Source of the DNA: Leptodesmis sichuanensis A121
GTDB lineage: Bacteria; Cyanobacteriota; Cyanobacteriia; Leptolyngbyales; Leptolyngbyaceae
Reading direction: 5' to 3'
Assembly: GCF_021379005.1 (NCBI RefSeq)
Contig: NZ_CP075171.1
Span: 3,286,001-3,350,000, forward strand
DNA length: 64,000 nucleotides
Made by a program: the position numbers and the translations under genes. The notes beneath the pieces are model-generated. The model had not been told where the DNA came from. It worked only from the letters and a program-made list of their open reading frames with translations, and did not search any database. This document shows, piece after piece, positions 37,562 through 61,338 of the stretch. Position 1 is the first letter of the stretch, and each line of letters starts with the position of its first letter.

Positions 37562-39127
37562 ATGGTTAAAGTTGCCTATCTGGACTGCCCAACGGGAATT
37601 GCTGGAGATATGTGCCTGGGTGCCCTCATCGATTTGGGTGTTCCTCTAGAATATTTAATCGACCAGCTAGGACGGTTGGGAATCGCCCAGGAGTACAAAC
37701 TGTGGACGGAAACAGTTCATCGCAACAGTCAGCGGGCCACCAAATTTCATGTCGATCTCGTCCTTAACGCTACAGAAATCACCCATTCCGATGCCTTCAC
37801 GACTTTCGATCACGAAGCTCATCAAGGCCACGTCCATTCTGCTACAGAAGGGGTAGCTTCCAACACCCTTGGCCATCCCCACCCCGCTCATTCTCACTCT
37901 CATTCCCACTCTCCTCACTCCTCCCCCCACCCTCACCCTCCCGTCCGCCACCTCTCTGACATTGAGCAACTCATCCTCAACGCCCAACTCCCTTCACGGG
38001 CAGAAGTCTGGAGTCTGGCGGTATTTCGCAAGCTGGCTGAGGCCGAAGGTGCCGTTCATGGGGTGCCTCCGGAACAGGTTCACTTTCATGAAGTCGGTGC
38101 AACAGATGCCCTGGTAGACATTATTGGCACCTGCCTGGGCCTGGACTGGTTGGGAATCGATCGCCTCTACTGTTCAGCCTTGCCTACGGGGGGAGGCAGC
38201 ATTCGGGCCGCACATGGCCGCTTACCCGTCCCTACACCTGCTGTGTTGAAACTGTTTGAAATGGGGCAGGTGCCGATTTACAGCAATGGGATTGAGAAAG
38301 AGCTAGTCACGCCTACGGGTGCCGCGATCGCCACCACCCTGGCTACCCAATTCGGCTCTCCCCCACCCATGATTCTGCACAAAGTCGGATTAGGAGCCGG
38401 AAGTCGGGATTTGTCCCTACCGAATATTTTGCGGCTGTGGATTGGGGCGGAGCAGGTAGCAGGAGGAAGGCACAAGACAGAAGGCAGAAGGTTGGAAGTG
38501 GAGGGGTGGAGAAGTGGAGGAGTGGGGGGAGACGAGGAAGGTGGGGGAGAAATTCAACATTCAACATTCAACATTCAAAACTCTACTGCCCCAGTCCAAA
38601 CTCCAAACTCCAAACTCCAAACTCTCACTCCTCCTAATCCCCAATCCCTAATCCCTAATAATCCCTCCACTCAAACTATCGCTGTGCTGGAAACCCAAAT
38701 TGACGATCTGAATCCGCAGGCGATCGCCTATGTGCTGGAAGTTCTCCTGGAAGCGGGGGCACTGGATGTGTTTACGCAGGCGATCGGCATGAAGAAGTCA
38801 CGGCCTGGCGTGCTACTGACGGTGATTTGCCAGCCAGAGGACGTGGCCCGTTGTGAAGGAATTCTGTTTCGGGAAACGACGACGCTGGGCATTCGCCGAT
38901 CGCTTCAGGAGCGCCAGACTTTGCCGCGTGAGTTGCAATCCGTGGAGACAGCGTATGGGCCAGTGCGGGTGAAGGTGGCCTGGGCAGCGGGGCGCGATCG
39001 GCCTCCTACGAATGTTCAGCCAGAATACGAGGACTGCGCTCAATTAGCCCGCTCCTACAATCACCCCTGGCGAGAGATCCAGCGGGCAGCGTTAGCAAGC
39101 TGGTATCGGCAAAATGGTATGGAGTGA
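37562..39127 (+). CDS. larC: Nickel-pincer cofactor biosynthesis protein LarC
   Basis: A 521-residue Lar[23 protein letters not shown] at the N-terminus, [35 protein letters not shown], and the C-terminal [17 protein letters not shown] and KVAWAAGRD. LarC inserts nickel into the pincer cofactor of lactate racemase and related enzymes in a CTP-dependent step. A His-rich loop (residues about 95-125, e.g. [17 protein letters not shown]) is a plausible metal-binding insert. Between about 38455 and 38680 lies a second, Ser/Asn/Pro-rich insert of about 70 residues made of heptad STRRs, which keeps the frame open. No larB or larE is adjacent. Confidence 0.88.
38551..38670. repeat. In-frame heptad STRR inside larC
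   Basis: Three and a half units of ATTCAAC (38552-38580), four units of CCAAACT (about 38595-38624), then CCCTAAT units. These are the same kind of arrays found between genes elsewhere in the window, but here they are translated. Confidence 0.85.
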
Positions 39128-39135
39128 AGAGTTTT

Positions 39136-39180
39136 GAGGTTTAAGTTTTAAGTTTTGAGTTGAACTGAGAACTGAACACT
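39136..39180. repeat. Heptad STRR between larC and pyrE
   Basis: Repeats of the TTTTGAG / TTTAAGT type, then TGAACTGAGAACTGAACACTG, in the 70-bp spacer between convergent larC and pyrE. Confidence 0.6.
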
Positions 39181-39197
39181 GAAAATTTAGAACTTTT

Positions 39198-50513: not shown

Positions 50514-53498
50514 TTAGAATTTGCCCTCCAATGCCGGAATGCAGCGATCGCAGAGCAGCGGATGGTCTTTGGACTGACCCACAAAGGTGGAGTAATTCCA
50601 GCAGCGATCGCACTTCTCGCCCTCTGCTTTCACCACCCCAATGCCCACGGTTTCCGTTTGAGCGCTATACTTTGCATCCGCCAATTTTTCAGCCGCATCC
50701 AGTACTTCCACCTGGGAAGTGAGGAAGAGATAGCGGAGTTCATCGACGTGATCGAGTGCTGAGTGCTGAGTGCTGAGTGCTGAGTTGGGTTTCGGATTGA
50801 GTGCTTGGAGGGTTGCTCGCAAGGTAGGATCCGACACAGACAACAGCAGTTTGGCTTCTAAAGAAGAGCCGATCGCCTTATCTGCCCGCGCTTTTTCCAT
50901 TACTTTGTTGACTTCGGTGCGGATGTCGCGCAGTTGTTCCCATTTGGTAGCCAGTTCAGGTTGATGCCACTGGTCTTCCAGCTTCACCCAACCCGCTTCA
51001 AAGACAGATTTGTACGGGGTGGAGTAGGGCAAGAATTGCCAGATGTCTTCGGCCAGGTGGGAGAGAACGGGGGCAATTGCTCGCGCCAGGTTCTCCAATG
51101 CAATCCACATCACGGTCTGGCAACTGCGGCGACGAGGAGAATTCGGCGCACTGATATAGAGCCGATCCTTGGCAATATCCAGATAGAAATTGGACAGATC
51201 CACCACACAGAAATTCTGCACCGTCTGGAAAAAGCGGTAGAACTGGAAGCTGTCAAACGCCTCGGTCACATCCTGAAAGACTTCGGTGATTCGGTGCAGC
51301 ATATAGCGATCGAGTTCTGGCAGTTGCTCATAAGGCACCGCGTCTTGAGCCGGATCAAAGTCATGCAAATTACCCAGCAGGAACCGAGCCGTGTTGCGAA
51401 TTTTGCCGCGCACATCGCCCAACTGTTTCAGGATATTTTTGCCAATCAGTACATCGGAAGTGTAATCGACGGAGGACACCCACAACCGCAACACATCGGC
51501 TCCATAGGGCGGTTCTTCTTTCTGATTCTTGCCGCCGTTGATGATGATCGCCGGATCTACTACATTGCCCAGCGACTTGCTCATCTTGCGGCCCTGTTCA
51601 TCCAGCGCAAAACCATGAGTCAGAACGGTCTTATAGGGCGCATGACCATTCACCGCCACACTGGTCAGCAAACTGGATTGGAACCAACCCCGGTGTTGAT
51701 CCGATCCTTCTAAATACATATCGGCAGGATATTTAAGCTTTGAGGTTTGAGGTTTGAGGTTTGAGGTTTCTGCCAACTGAGAACTTAAAACTGAGAACTC
51801 AGCACTGTCCAAAACGGCTGCCCAGGAGGAACCGGAGTCGAACCAGACATCCATGGTATCAGTGCCTTTGCGGTAGGTTTTGCCGTTGCTACGGTAGGGT
51901 TCCGGGAGCAGGTCGGCGACGGAGAGTTCCCACCAGGCATCCGAGCCTTGTTCAGCGATGATGGCCTGCACATGGGCGATCGTTGCCTCGTTCATCAGGG
52001 GTTCGTTCGTGTCCTCGTCATAAAACACGGGAATGGGAACGCCCCAACTGCGCTGCCGGGAAATGCACCAGTCCGATCGCTCGGCCACCATTGGGGTGAT
52101 CCGGTTTTCGCCCTGAGCTGGAATCCAGGTCACCTCTGCGATCGCCTTCAGGGCCTTATCCCGGAAGCCTTCCACGGAAGCAAACCATTGTTCGGTAGCC
52201 CGGAAGATCGTTGGTTTTTTGGTGCGCCAGTCGTAGGGATATTTATGCACGTAAGGTTCTTCTTTCAAGAGAGAACCCGCTTCCTGCAGGGCGACCACCA
52301 CCGCTCCATTGCCCTCTCCCAGCACATTCAGGCCAGCAAAAGGGCCAGCTTCTTCGGTAAAGTTGCCATCGTCGTCTACGGGGGAAAAGATCGGCAGTCC
52401 ATAGCGCAAGCCCACATGATAGTCTTCCTGACCATGCCCAGGAGCGGTGTGGACCAATCCGGTTCCAGATTCGGTTGTCACATAATCCCCACCGATCACG
52501 ACTTCACTTTCCCGATCGTACAGGGGATGGCGGTAGGTAATGTGTTCCAGCAACTTGCCCATTACCGTTGCCTGCACCGTCAGGCTGGTGCCCAGGGTTT
52601 CAGAGAGACGATCGACCAGATCCTTGGCCACGATCAGGTAGCGCATGGGGCCGATTCTGGTTTTCAGGGTTGCCAGTTCAGGGCCAACTTCCACCACGGC
52701 GTAGACCAATTCTGGATTGACGCTAACGGCTAAATTGGCGGGAATGGTCCAGGGTGTCGTTGTCCAGATCGCGACTCCCAGTTCACCCAGAAACGGATCC
52801 AGGGGAGCCTGTAATGCAGGAGGCAGGTTGGTGACTTCAAAGGCGGCATAGAGCGATCGCGAGGTGTGGCCTTCCGGATACTCCAGTTCTGCTTCTGCCA
52901 GTGCCGTTTTAGAACTGGGACTCCAGTGAACGGGTTTGCGGCCCCGGTAGATGTAGCCCTTGGTCACCATCTGCCCAAACACGCCGATTTGTGCCGCTTC
53001 ATAGGCAGGATTCAGGGTCAGGTAGGGATGATCCCAATCGCCCCATACGCCATACCGCTTGAAACTGGCCCGTTGCTCATCCACCGTCTTGAGGGCAAAT
53101 TCTTTGGCTTTCTGGCGCAGGCTTAACGGGGTCAGTTCGCGTCGCTGCTCTGGCTTCATGGCTTGCAGCACCTTCAATTCAATGGGCAATCCATGACAAT
53201 CCCAACCGGGTACATAGCGCACTTTTCGCCCTTGCAACAGCCGATATTTATTAATGATGTCCTTGAGAATTTTGTTCATGGCATGGCCCATGTGCAGGGA
53301 GCCATTGGCGTAGGGCGGCCCATCGTGCAGCACGAACACCTCACCGGGATTATGCTGCGACAGGCGATCGTAAATTTGATACTCTTCCCAAAACTTTTGA
53401 ATCTCTGGTTCCCGTTTGACGGCATTCGCCCGCATATCAAACTGGGTCTTGGGAAGGTTAACAGTGTCTTTGTACGATCCGGGTTCTGTTGCAGCCAT
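50514..53498 (-). CDS. ileS: Isoleucyl-tRNA synthetase
   Basis: About 994 residues from ATG at 53498 (MAATEPGSYKDTVNLPKT). The HIGH motif variant LHMGHA (in PPYANGSLHMGHA), the editing domain (TTPWTIPANLAVSVNPE), the KMSKS loop (GRKMSKSLGN) and the C-terminal zinc finger (CDRCWNYS, CDRC) are present. The enzyme charges tRNA-Ile and edits valine. Two heptad arrays are translated: one adds about 22 residues (SAEFSVLSSQLAETSNLKPQ) between DSGSSWAAV and YPADMYLEGSDQ, the other adds about 12 (NSALSTQHSALD) in the C-terminal part. Otherwise the gene looks intact; length exceeds the usual 955-965. Confidence 0.95.
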   Translation of the reverse strand: MAATEPGSYKDTVNLPKTQFDMRANAVKREPEIQKFWEEYQIYDRLSQHNPGEVFVLHDGPPYANGSLHMGHAMNKILKDIINKYRLLQGRKVRYVPGWDCHGLPIELKVLQAMKPEQRRELTPLSLRQKAKEFALKTVDEQRASFKRYGVWGDWDHPYLTLNPAYEAAQIGVFGQMVTKGYIYRGRKPVHWSPSSKTALAEAELEYPEGHTSRSLYAAFEVTNLPPALQAPLDPFLGELGVAIWTTTPWTIPANLAVSVNPELVYAVVEVGPELATLKTRIGPMRYLIVAKDLVDRLSETLGTSLTVQATVMGKLLEHITYRHPLYDRESEVVIGGDYVTTESGTGLVHTAPGHGQEDYHVGLRYGLPIFSPVDDDGNFTEEAGPFAGLNVLGEGNGAVVVALQEAGSLLKEEPYVHKYPYDWRTKKPTIFRATEQWFASVEGFRDKALKAIAEVTWIPAQGENRITPMVAERSDWCISRQRSWGVPIPVFYDEDTNEPLMNEATIAHVQAIIAEQGSDAWWELSVADLLPEPYRSNGKTYRKGTDTMDVWFDSGSSWAAVLDSAEFSVLSSQLAETSNLKPQTSKLKYPADMYLEGSDQHRGWFQSSLLTSVAVNGHAPYKTVLTHGFALDEQGRKMSKSLGNVVDPAIIINGGKNQKEEPPYGADVLRLWVSSVDYTSDVLIGKNILKQLGDVRGKIRNTARFLLGNLHDFDPAQDAVPYEQLPELDRYMLHRITEVFQDVTEAFDSFQFYRFFQTVQNFCVVDLSNFYLDIAKDRLYISAPNSPRRRSCQTVMWIALENLARAIAPVLSHLAEDIWQFLPYSTPYKSVFEAGWVKLEDQWHQPELATKWEQLRDIRTEVNKVMEKARADKAIGSSLEAKLLLSVSDPTLRATLQALNPKPNSALSTQHSALDHVDELRYLFLTSQVEVLDAAEKLADAKYSAQTETVGIGVVKAEGEKCDRCWNYSTFVGQSKDHPLLCDRCIPALEGKF
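50754..50785. repeat. In-frame heptad STRR in ileS, C-terminal copy
   Basis: Exactly four units of GAGTGCT (50754-50781) plus GAGT, translated on the minus strand as part of an Ala/Ser/His linker. Confidence 0.9.
51740..51767. repeat. In-frame heptad STRR in ileS, catalytic-domain copy
   Basis: Four units of TTGAGGT followed by a second, less regular stretch (AACTGAG/AACTTAAAACT, to about 51806). Together they encode the 22-residue insert. Confidence 0.9.
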
Positions 53499-54110: not shown

Positions 54111-54200
54111 TGGCGTTAACGAACCTTGCCATAACACTTTCGGCTGAAGATCAGGGCATTCCAGCTTCGTTTCAATCAATAGTTTTTCAAGGGTGTGAGT

Positions 54201-55493
54201 ATGAACCAGTCTACCGCCTTGCCAACTGCTGAATCATCCCTTTACGCTGCCTACATTGGCGTTGATTGGGCTGACCGCAAACATGATATCTGCTTGTATG
54301 ATTCAACCACTCAACAAATTGAATCTTGCATCATTAGTGCTCAACCAGAAGCGATCGCTGCTTGGGTAGAAGGATTAAGAAAACGATTTCCGCAAGGAAA
54401 GATTGCCATCTGTACAGAGCAAAAACGAGGATCATTGATCTATGCTCTGTGCAAGTACGAGTTCTTGGTGCTTTACCCAGTCAACACCCTCCTTGTTGCG
54501 AACTATCGCCAAGCGTTCGCGCCCTCTCGGGCTAAATCAGACCCCACCGATGCTCAAATTCTGGTTGAACTGTTGCTCAAGCACTGGGATAAGCTGAAAG
54601 CTTGGCAACCGGGCAGTGCCACACTGCGTTCCCTGCAGCAGTTAGTGGAGAATCGACGGATGCTCGTGGCAGAGAAGGTGCGCCTGACCAATCGGATCAC
54701 GGCTGCGCTTAAAGGCTATTTCCCTCAAGTACTGGAATGGTTTGAGGATAAGGATACCCAGGTGTTCTGTGAGTTCCTCACTTGCTATCCCAGTCTCAAA
54801 GCTGCCCAAGCTGCCTCTAAAGAAGAGTTAGAGAAGTTTTTCAAGTCGCATCACGTTGTGCAGGCAAAGACCATTGAACATAGGCTTGAGCAAATTCAAC
54901 AGGGAGTTGCTTTGACAGAGGATGCAGGTATTGTAGAACCGCTGCAACTCTTAGTTGCAGCCTTAATCGCCCAATTGCAGGTGCTCTTACCCAGTATTAC
55001 AACCTTCGATACCAAGATAGAGAAGCTGTTTGAATCCCATCCCGATGCTGAGTTATTTGCCGCACTACCAGGAGCCGGACCCCATTTAGCACCCAGACTT
55101 CTCGTGGCCTTTGGGGAAGAACGAGATCGCTACCAAACTGCCCAAGACCTGTTGCGCTATGCCGGAATTGCTCCGGTGAAGGAGAGCAGTGGACAGAAGT
55201 CGTGGGTACATTGGCGCTGGAGTTGTCCCAGGTTTCTCCGACAGACCTTTGTGGAATGGGCCTTACAAACTCGCAAATACTCATTCTGGGCAGAAGCGTT
55301 TTATCAGATGCAACGACAGAAGGGGAAAACGCACCAGGCTGCGATTCGGGCTTTGGCATTCAAGTGGATTCGAATTGTTTTCCGCTGCTGGCAGGATAGA
55401 CAGCCCTATGATGAAGTGAAATATCTGATGGCTTTGAAGCGCAAAGGTTCACCCCTCGTACAAAATTTGGCACTCTTGGCAGAAGCCGAATAA
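54201..55493 (+). CDS. IS110-family transposase (bridge recombinase)
   Basis: A 430-residue protein from ATG at 54201; a GTG two codons earlier is also open. The N-terminal DEDD RuvC-like domain shows YIGVDWADRKHDICLYD and SDPTDAQILVELL; the C-terminal Tnp domain shows LPGAGPHLAPRLLVAFG and YAGIAPVKESSGQK, the region that holds the catalytic serine. The frame is intact, so the enzyme is probably active. Read towards hicBA on the other strand. Confidence 0.92.
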   Translation: MNQSTALPTAESSLYAAYIGVDWADRKHDICLYDSTTQQIESCIISAQPEAIAAWVEGLRKRFPQGKIAICTEQKRGSLIYALCKYEFLVLYPVNTLLVANYRQAFAPSRAKSDPTDAQILVELLLKHWDKLKAWQPGSATLRSLQQLVENRRMLVAEKVRLTNRITAALKGYFPQVLEWFEDKDTQVFCEFLTCYPSLKAAQAASKEELEKFFKSHHVVQAKTIEHRLEQIQQGVALTEDAGIVEPLQLLVAALIAQLQVLLPSITTFDTKIEKLFESHPDAELFAALPGAGPHLAPRLLVAFGEERDRYQTAQDLLRYAGIAPVKESSGQKSWVHWRWSCPRFLRQTFVEWALQTRKYSFWAEAFYQMQRQKGKTHQAAIRALAFKWIRIVFRCWQDRQPYDEVKYLMALKRKGSPLVQNLALLAEAE

Positions 55494-60470: not shown

Positions 60471-61090
60471 GTGCTCAACGCCTTGTGGCATCAGAGGTTT
60501 AGGAACCCCCATTGATTACTTGTAGTGAGCGTCGTGTCAGAGGTTCGCAGTGCTCAACGCCTTGTGGCATCAGAGGTTTAGGAACGGGCAGAGGCGCACC
60601 CCGACGCTGTTCTGAAGTTGGATCAGGTGCTCAACGCCTTGTGGCATCAGAGGTTTAGGAACTGGCTCATCAGTGGTCTAAAACCTTTATCAAAGGCGAC
60701 TGTGCTCAACGCCTTGTGGCATCAGAGGTTTAGGAACGGGAGTCGATCGCTGCCGATAGTGCCCGCTGTTGAGGTGCTCAACGCCTTGTGGCATCAGAGG
60801 TTTAGGAACCCAGCAGGGTTACTGGGGTTGTCCCCTTCTCATAGTGCTCAACGCCTTGTGGCATCAGAGGTTTAGGAACCCACGATCTCGATAAATGCAT
60901 TTCCAGACTTTTCGGGTGCTCAACGCCTTGTGGCATCAGAGGTTTAGGAACGTGCAACAGGACTTTCCGTTGGTTGGCGTGGGTGGTGCTCAACGCCTTG
61001 TGGCATCAGAGGTTTAGGAAGCGGGCGGGAGGAGCTTTGGAGTCGACTCATCCAGTGCTCAACGCCTTGTGGCATCAGAGGTTTAGGAAG
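60471..61090 (-). CRISPR. CRISPR array, nine 36-bp repeats, eight spacers
   Basis: Repeats start at 60471, 60550, 60627, 60702, 60774, 60844, 60916, 60986 and 61055. On the plus strand each begins GTGCTCAACGCCTTGTGG and ends GGTTTAGGAAC; the transcribed strand, judging from the cas genes, is the minus strand, beginning GTTCCTAAACC. The two cas-proximal repeats (60986, 61055) have G instead of C as last plus-strand base. Spacers are, from the cas side, 33, 34, 36, 34, 36, 39, 41 and 43 bp. A short GCC-TTGT-GGC stem is present in the repeat. The distal repeat is perfect. Confidence 0.97.
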
Positions 61091-61338
61091 GCGGTGGCTG
61101 AAATGACTGAGGAGTGAGGCTCCTCGGGCACTTTTGCAAGCTATTCCAGTAATTAGGGTTAAAAGTTCCATAGTTTTAATTTTACCTGAAGTTTGGTGAG
61201 GTTGAAAGCTAAGACCAGAAGTAGATACACCCTTTGCAAGCACCGGAAAGCCTTGAAGATCTGCTGCAAACCTTTACTTGGCAAGCAGTTGAAGGCATTA
61301 ATCCACCGTTTTTACGGTGACATCCAGCTATGCTTGCA
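61091..61338 (-). promoter_or_regulatory. CRISPR leader region
   Basis: A 248-bp non-coding segment between the first repeat and cas2. It is AT-rich in its middle (61145-61185), includes a small GAGGAGTGAGGCTCCTC hairpin next to the array, and has the position expected of a leader for minus-strand transcription. No promoter boxes are assigned. Confidence 0.65.

Follow-up and report, generated by a model that had tools for sequence, protein, structure and literature searches.

The window, the whole 64,000-nucleotide stretch of Leptodesmis sichuanensis A121 DNA analyzed here, raises the question of how tandem heptamers come to lie in frame within ileS, the gene for isoleucyl-tRNA synthetase. 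The gene is one uninterrupted ORF of 994 codons (50514-53498, minus strand, ATG at 53498), and this ORF matches the NCBIfam ileS model TIGR00392 with 994 bits (cut-off 621). It is the sole copy, as a second IleS was not found in the genome, which is assembled as one contig of 5.35 Mb and is 99.9% complete. TRF detected GAGTGCT ×4.6 at 50754-50785 and TTTGAGG/TTGAGGT ×4.4 at 51739-51769, both with a 100% match and with four whole units, as well as a 14-bp repeat equal to two heptamers at 51775-51801. The preliminary description of this DNA had placed four-unit GAGTGCT and TTGAGGT arrays in frame within ileS; TRF and the ORF confirm these positions, and we add that the gene runs on the minus strand, the arrays as written lying on the template strand.

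The extent of the two inserts was read from an alignment of 102 cyanobacterial IleS sequences (that of this genome and 101 others). Between DSGSSWAAV and YPADMYLEG, this IleS has 27 residues (563-589, LDSAEFSVLSSQLAETSNLKPQTSKLK) where its nearest relatives have 8 (AEQRSELR, AKQRPELR), a gain of 19. This insert A (51732-51812, minus strand) is an in-frame heptamer inverted-repeat element in place of the native AEQRSELR-type loop. Composed of a left arm, a spacer, and a right arm, it is more than four TTGAGGT units. The left arm (51775-51801, minus strand), which holds the 14-bp repeat, is AGTTCTCAGTTTTAAGTTCTCAGTT and encodes FSVLSSQL, and the right arm (51739-51769, minus strand) reads (ACCTCAA)×4.4 on the coding strand and encodes TSNLKPQTS. 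Insert B (50752-50787, minus strand; NPKPNSALSTQHSALDHVDEL) reads (AGCACTC)×4.6 on the coding strand and lies in a C-terminal loop; where this IleS has NPKPNSALSTQHSALDHVDELR, relatives have NPGDQNLSLNHVDELR or NPADSLSGNQVDELR, which are shorter by 6 or 7 residues. The earlier figures of about 12 and 22 added residues were thus too high. On the solved bacterial IleRS 8c9e, the alignment puts insert A between VLEERE and DLQRPADLYLEGSDQ, a site that varies in length among IleS sequences even without repeats. The best reading is that one insertion sits in a catalytic-domain loop and the other in a C-terminal loop, and the enzyme is predicted from its gene to contain the translated insert peptide LSSQLAETSNLKPQTSK. 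An AlphaFold2 model of IleS (40 cyanobacterial sequences; mean pLDDT 58, pTM 0.35) was unusable for placing the loops.

Insert A has many relatives in its own genome. A search with 96 bp around it gave more than 50 matches, ~25 of which span both arms, at 73 to 86% identity over 57 to 82 bp and with E values down to 1e-15. In their common form, AGTTCTCAGTTTTAAGTTCTCAGTT is followed by a short spacer and then by AACTCAA or AACTTAA about four times, so that the arms are inverted heptamers and the whole is an imperfect inverted repeat of 60 to 80 bp. Dispersed intergenic copies, one of them just downstream of larC (39129-39194, minus strand), uphold the view that the ileS arrays are of the same class as repeats in the intergenic spacers. 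Other copies lie within genes, whose ORFs were assigned to magnesium chelatase H (ChlH), PurL, ValS, EgtB, and LigA and, as judged by eye, to an alpha-2-macroglobulin-like protein; their peptides resemble EFSVLSSQL...NSKLKTQNSK and include KFSGLSSQLESETQTSNLKTQTLK, EFSDVSSQLQNSENSKLTTQSSK, SQFSVLSSQFPDTTQNS, and KFSVLSSQLEVPLKTQNLK. The ileS, chlH, purL, valS, egtB, and ligA copies use the identical reading frame in every case compared. Each of the six in-gene copies tested can be read through on the coding strand, and five of the six in just one frame, while 10 of 15 intergenic copies have no open frame at all. Most of the same 15 intergenic copies fold into stable hairpins (z values chiefly between −3 and −8); folding of the in-gene copies is variable and often weaker. 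A hairpin in ileS mRNA was rejected as a function, since insert A forms none on the coding strand, which folds worse than its shuffles (z +1.9). Neither target duplications nor exact empty sites were seen in the relatives, which are too diverged for base-exact boundaries, and no link of the element to a transposase was seen.

Heptamer arrays are frequent throughout the genome, beyond what chance would give. In 1.6 Mb of contiguous blocks we counted 76 period-7 arrays, 45 of them inside ORFs, as against 6, 0, 2, and 0 arrays for periods 8, 10, 11, and 13 (0 to 6 when periods 4 and 5 are added). With a further 0.4 Mb picked around element copies, and hence biased, the sample comes to 2.0 Mb (37% of the genome) and 117 period-7 arrays (control periods, 0 to 6), of which 70 lie in 47 ORFs of at least 200 amino acids. 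Density per base is still higher outside ORFs, ~80% of the DNA being ORF. ORFs were called by a simple greedy method that by construction leaves stop-bearing arrays out of the in-gene count; therefore, the absence of stops is by itself no proof of selection. NCBIfam identified array-bearing genes for Mfd (three arrays), SMC, IleS, ValS, PurL, MutS2, RecG, PriA, DnaG, HtpG, NAD+ synthase, Lnt, LarC, HemW, PyrB, RsmG, GlmS, nicotinate phosphoribosyltransferase, and LigA. Repeats in essential enzymes, which the preliminary description had considered unusual, are therefore not so in this genome. Within genes, the units AAAATCC (IQNPKSK), AAAATTC (IQNSKFK), ACACCCC (TPHTPHP), AAAACTC (KTQNSKL), and AATCCCC (NPQSPIP) predominate. 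Sizes are narrow, with exact runs seldom above 36 nt, and exactly four whole perfect units make up the commonest class (31 of the 70 in-gene arrays).

The A+C-rich strand is the coding strand in 60 in-gene arrays and the opposite one in 10, and where both strands are open, the more hydrophilic one is coding in 42 of 44 arrays. We do not take this bias to prove selection at the protein level, because intergenic arrays between codirectional genes lean the same way, if less strongly (17:5; P = 0.34 against the in-gene arrays at a strict threshold, P = 0.01 at a looser one). Part of the 60:10 preference may reflect insertion polarity rather than selection on the protein. In the 2.0-Mb sample, in-gene arrays are also the more perfectly periodic, 38 of 70 having at least four whole units compared with 5 of the 47 others. 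A younger age of the in-gene arrays would give this difference, which is the least explained point. The second array-bearing gene of the window, larC (37562-39127, plus strand), has in-frame arrays near 38497-38525, 38552-38578, 38595-38624, and 38633-38659, and ~60 heptamer-encoded residues separate its LarC1 and LarC2 parts.

The same loops are occupied in some relatives. At the site of insert A, the IleS proteins of L009, L016 to L019, and L033 have in-frame inserts of 13 to 41 residues in the alignment, made from differing repeats, and the IleS insert of Leptolyngbya sp. FACHB-321 is also of another type than that of this genome. Within genus g18 alone, the IleS tree holds four states of the loop: the native one (L027) and three repeat types in other genomes; the native L027 and insert-bearing L033 proteins are 96% identical. 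PurL, ChlH, ValS, PyrB, LigA, and Mfd (8 to 18 relatives each) give the same picture of one site with different repeats or a short native loop and with frames open, and in the relatives' copies examined the frame was never seen to be broken where an insert lies. Relatives do not share the ileS inserts as conserved, nonrepetitive residues but have either the short native loop or repeats of another kind. At these loci, arrays are numerous in the genomes of g9, g10, and g18, and none was found in those of g3, g11, g12, and g14; g1 is a further group of high array density. A wider set of 101 IleS-centered loci (762 kb), drawn from cyanobacteria in general, gave 5 in-ORF arrays, two of them apparently in a leader ahead of the native start, and 28 other arrays, so this genome and some of its relatives are outliers.

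Further inserts were noted in these synthetases. In L017, an insert of the L033 type is interrupted by two more in-frame pieces (around CTAGTGCAGCGGCGCAAAGCACAC and TATTCCCTTCGGGAACGCTACGCGAACA), and a nested TTCCCTTCGGGAACGCTACGCGAACA-like piece in the L017 insert is absent from L033; this piece was noted with regard to the small dispersed repeats (SDRs) of Nostoc, which are sequence families of 21 to 27 nt with conserved secondary structure. A different IleS loop, YAVVEV...YLIV, has in-frame inserts made of other repeats that look dispersed (CCCCACCCCCCAACCCCCTCCCC and CGCAGAGACGCGGAG types) in L044, L053, L054, L069, L073, L077, L085, L087, and L091, mainly Nostocales. The ValS proteins of G016 and G017 (L258 and L259) have an insert of ~115 to 130 residues with two hydrophobic stretches, absent from the ValS of this genome, which looks like CAAD, a known cyanobacterial membrane anchor of tRNA synthetases (PMC4893482).

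Sequence comparison with relatives indicates turnover of the arrays. Fourfold-degenerate sites of this genome (G000 in cross-genome comparisons) are 33 to 48% identical to those of relatives, near saturation. For G000 and L033 the value is 43%, while their insert A DNAs are 78% identical without gaps, with ACCTCAA ×4 in the former and AACTCAA ×4 in the latter. The ValS inserts of G000 and G040 (LGD...TQNSLQLADR) do not differ in length, and the left arm forms a perfect (AGTTCTC)4 in G000 and is degenerate in G040; unlike ileS, then, valS has a nonrepetitive relative of equal length, as postinsertion decay would give. Perfect arrays at a saturated synonymous distance imply new insertions, transfers, or rehomogenized copies.

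We consider it probable that the genome hosts proliferating short heptamer repeats that also enter genes, where in-frame, stop-free inserts in tolerant loops would survive and be translated as hydrophilic linkers. What we observed in support of this are the in-frame arrays, the dispersed copies of a two-armed element, the recurrence of sites in relatives, the patchy presence, and perfect arrays beside saturated synonymous sites. Spacer-type repeat DNA thus appears to have been turned into extra protein loops genome-wide, in frame and at flexible positions. In the proposed sequence of events, heptamer arrays of about four units, often two of opposite arms forming a 60- to 80-bp imperfect hairpin element, would enter DNA at or near random, genes included, by slippage, templated repair, or mobilization as candidate routes. 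Purifying selection would remove inserts that break the frame, carry stops, or hit structured parts, so that in-gene survival would require a length divisible by three, a stop-free coding strand, and a length-tolerant loop. Survivors would be translated as hydrophilic linkers and later be replaced, be rehomogenized, or decay. The peptides would presumably be present in the enzyme and be neutral or mildly harmful to it, and the repeats themselves are best read as selfish or mutational DNA that enters genes continually. Selection on length and fixation of each array as a unit, posed earlier as alternatives, each hold in part: insert A is unit sized, with ~25 dispersed relatives, and only frame-keeping versions were seen.

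Arrays might instead have grown in place, by replication slippage in three-unit steps from heptamer-like seeds in variable loops, with no insertion at all. The claim that a slip of one unit would kill ileS is sound for a single unit, which breaks the frame, but a change of three units (21 nt) keeps it. Insert B suits such growth: it consists of a single pure array and lacks an opposite arm, and compared with L006 (AACTTATCACTCAATCA) it resembles the native AACTCAGCACTC plus three CAGCACT units (21 nt), minus one codon. However, slippage at each site separately would not produce the two-armed insert A together with in-gene relatives of similar size and dispersed copies, and both the narrow array sizes, with few exact runs beyond 36 nt, and the prevalence of four whole units in genes count against it. 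We therefore regard slippage in place as an unlikely account of the inserts as a whole. An artefact of assembly or sequencing deserves mention, since tandem repeats are prone to misassembly, but it is hardly credible for dozens of arrays that all keep frame, in a one-contig genome of 99.9% completeness, when independent assemblies of relatives have the same class of insert at the same codons.

Two other explanations accept the insertions and differ in what becomes of them. Were the inserts cut from the mRNA or bypassed by the ribosome, like introns or bypassing elements, the protein would be normal. Bypassed hairpins are known in other systems, and the strong hairpins among intergenic members of the insert A family would fit, but removal would free the inserts from any need for a frame or open codons; yet the in-gene copies are open in the frame of their gene, they often fold worse than intergenic copies, and in the relatives' copies examined the frame stayed intact at the insert sites. 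Removal or bypass is accordingly most improbable. Slightly less so, although still improbable, is adaptive use, in which the arrays would be retained for a role as linkers, as regulatory features of the mRNA, or as phase-variable switches. The higher perfection of arrays in genes would suit such a role, but relatives have unrelated repeats or nothing at the same sites, array-bearing genes share no theme beyond conservation, and phase switching of single-copy essential genes would be lethal. Entry of proliferating repeats into genes, with survival of those that keep frame in tolerant loops, is the explanation that we prefer.

The closest parallel is with Rickettsia palindromic elements (RPEs), dispersed palindromes found in frame in many unrelated and often conserved genes as well as in intergenic DNA, of which an insert in Gmk is tolerated (PMC2229807, PMC10969869). 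RPEs insert into genes in frame, keeping frame and orientation from one host gene to the next, and the ileS, chlH, purL, valS, egtB, and ligA copies likewise encode one peptide frame. As for the palindromic trait of RPEs, hairpin folding is seen in most intergenic copies here, varies among in-gene copies, and is lacking in that of ileS. In contrast to the 60- to 80-bp two-armed elements and single arrays of many heptamers found here, RPEs measure 105 to 150 bp and are not described as heptamer arrays; with hosts that are Leptolyngbyaceae-type cyanobacteria, the present inserts are set apart by size, sequence, and host and likened by description. By analogy, the heptamer inserts appear to work like RPEs, but they are not members of that group. 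Intragenic MITEs with open frames (ERIC, Correia, RU) are likewise small and mobile and form in-frame fusions with genes (PMC2229807), but they are longer and have terminal inverted repeats, and no target duplication or transposase link was seen here. A stronger version of our reading seems possible but somewhat doubtful: that an active genome-wide process rewrites four-unit heptamer modules in loops of essential proteins, which would be swapped within a genus with frame and often length fixed and would evolve in concert with intergenic repeats, as an RPE counterpart outside Rickettsia that uses tandem heptamers.

By unit length and four-unit preference, the arrays belong with the heptamer repeats of Nostoc, Calothrix, and Xanthomonas, which the passages seen of one report describe as mainly intergenic and underrepresented in coding regions, with about one-third of GGGGATT-type repeats of Nostoc PCC 7120 being intragenic (PMC4692102). 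Like the cyanobacterial short tandemly repeated repetitive (STRR) heptamers, they are dispersed tandem 7-bp units with a strong preference for period 7 in a cyanobacterial host, but they are not mainly intergenic, 70 of 117 lying in ORFs of at least 200 amino acids. A four-unit preference is also common to the GGGNATC G-quadruplex heptamers of Nostoc and Xanthomonas; the ileS units GAGTGCT and TTGAGGT have no GGG tract and are not G-quadruplex motifs, although some other arrays here fit. Those same Nostoc and Xanthomonas passages do not mention translation in frame, recurrence at loop sites, or essential enzymes, and in the open-licence literature we found no paper on heptamers inserted in frame into cyanobacterial proteins or essential enzymes, which is weak evidence of absence.

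If the inserts are translated as predicted, dozens of core enzymes in one organism bear recent repeat-derived loops. As relatives have versions of these enzymes that lack the loop or bear a different one, the tolerance of a foreign peptide in an essential enzyme becomes testable, and both the origin of loops and the copying of cyanobacterial heptamer repeats, long known and unexplained, become approachable. Annotation and phylogenies of these proteins meanwhile include repeat-derived columns. Elsewhere in the window, the next large ORF upstream of ileS (54195-55493) reads like a putative IS110-type transposase (YIGVDWADRKHDICLYDS), and in a CRISPR-like array at 60602-61110, GTGCTCAACGCCTTGTGGCATCAGAGGTTTAGGAA(C) occurs about eight times, separated by spacers of ~35 bp.
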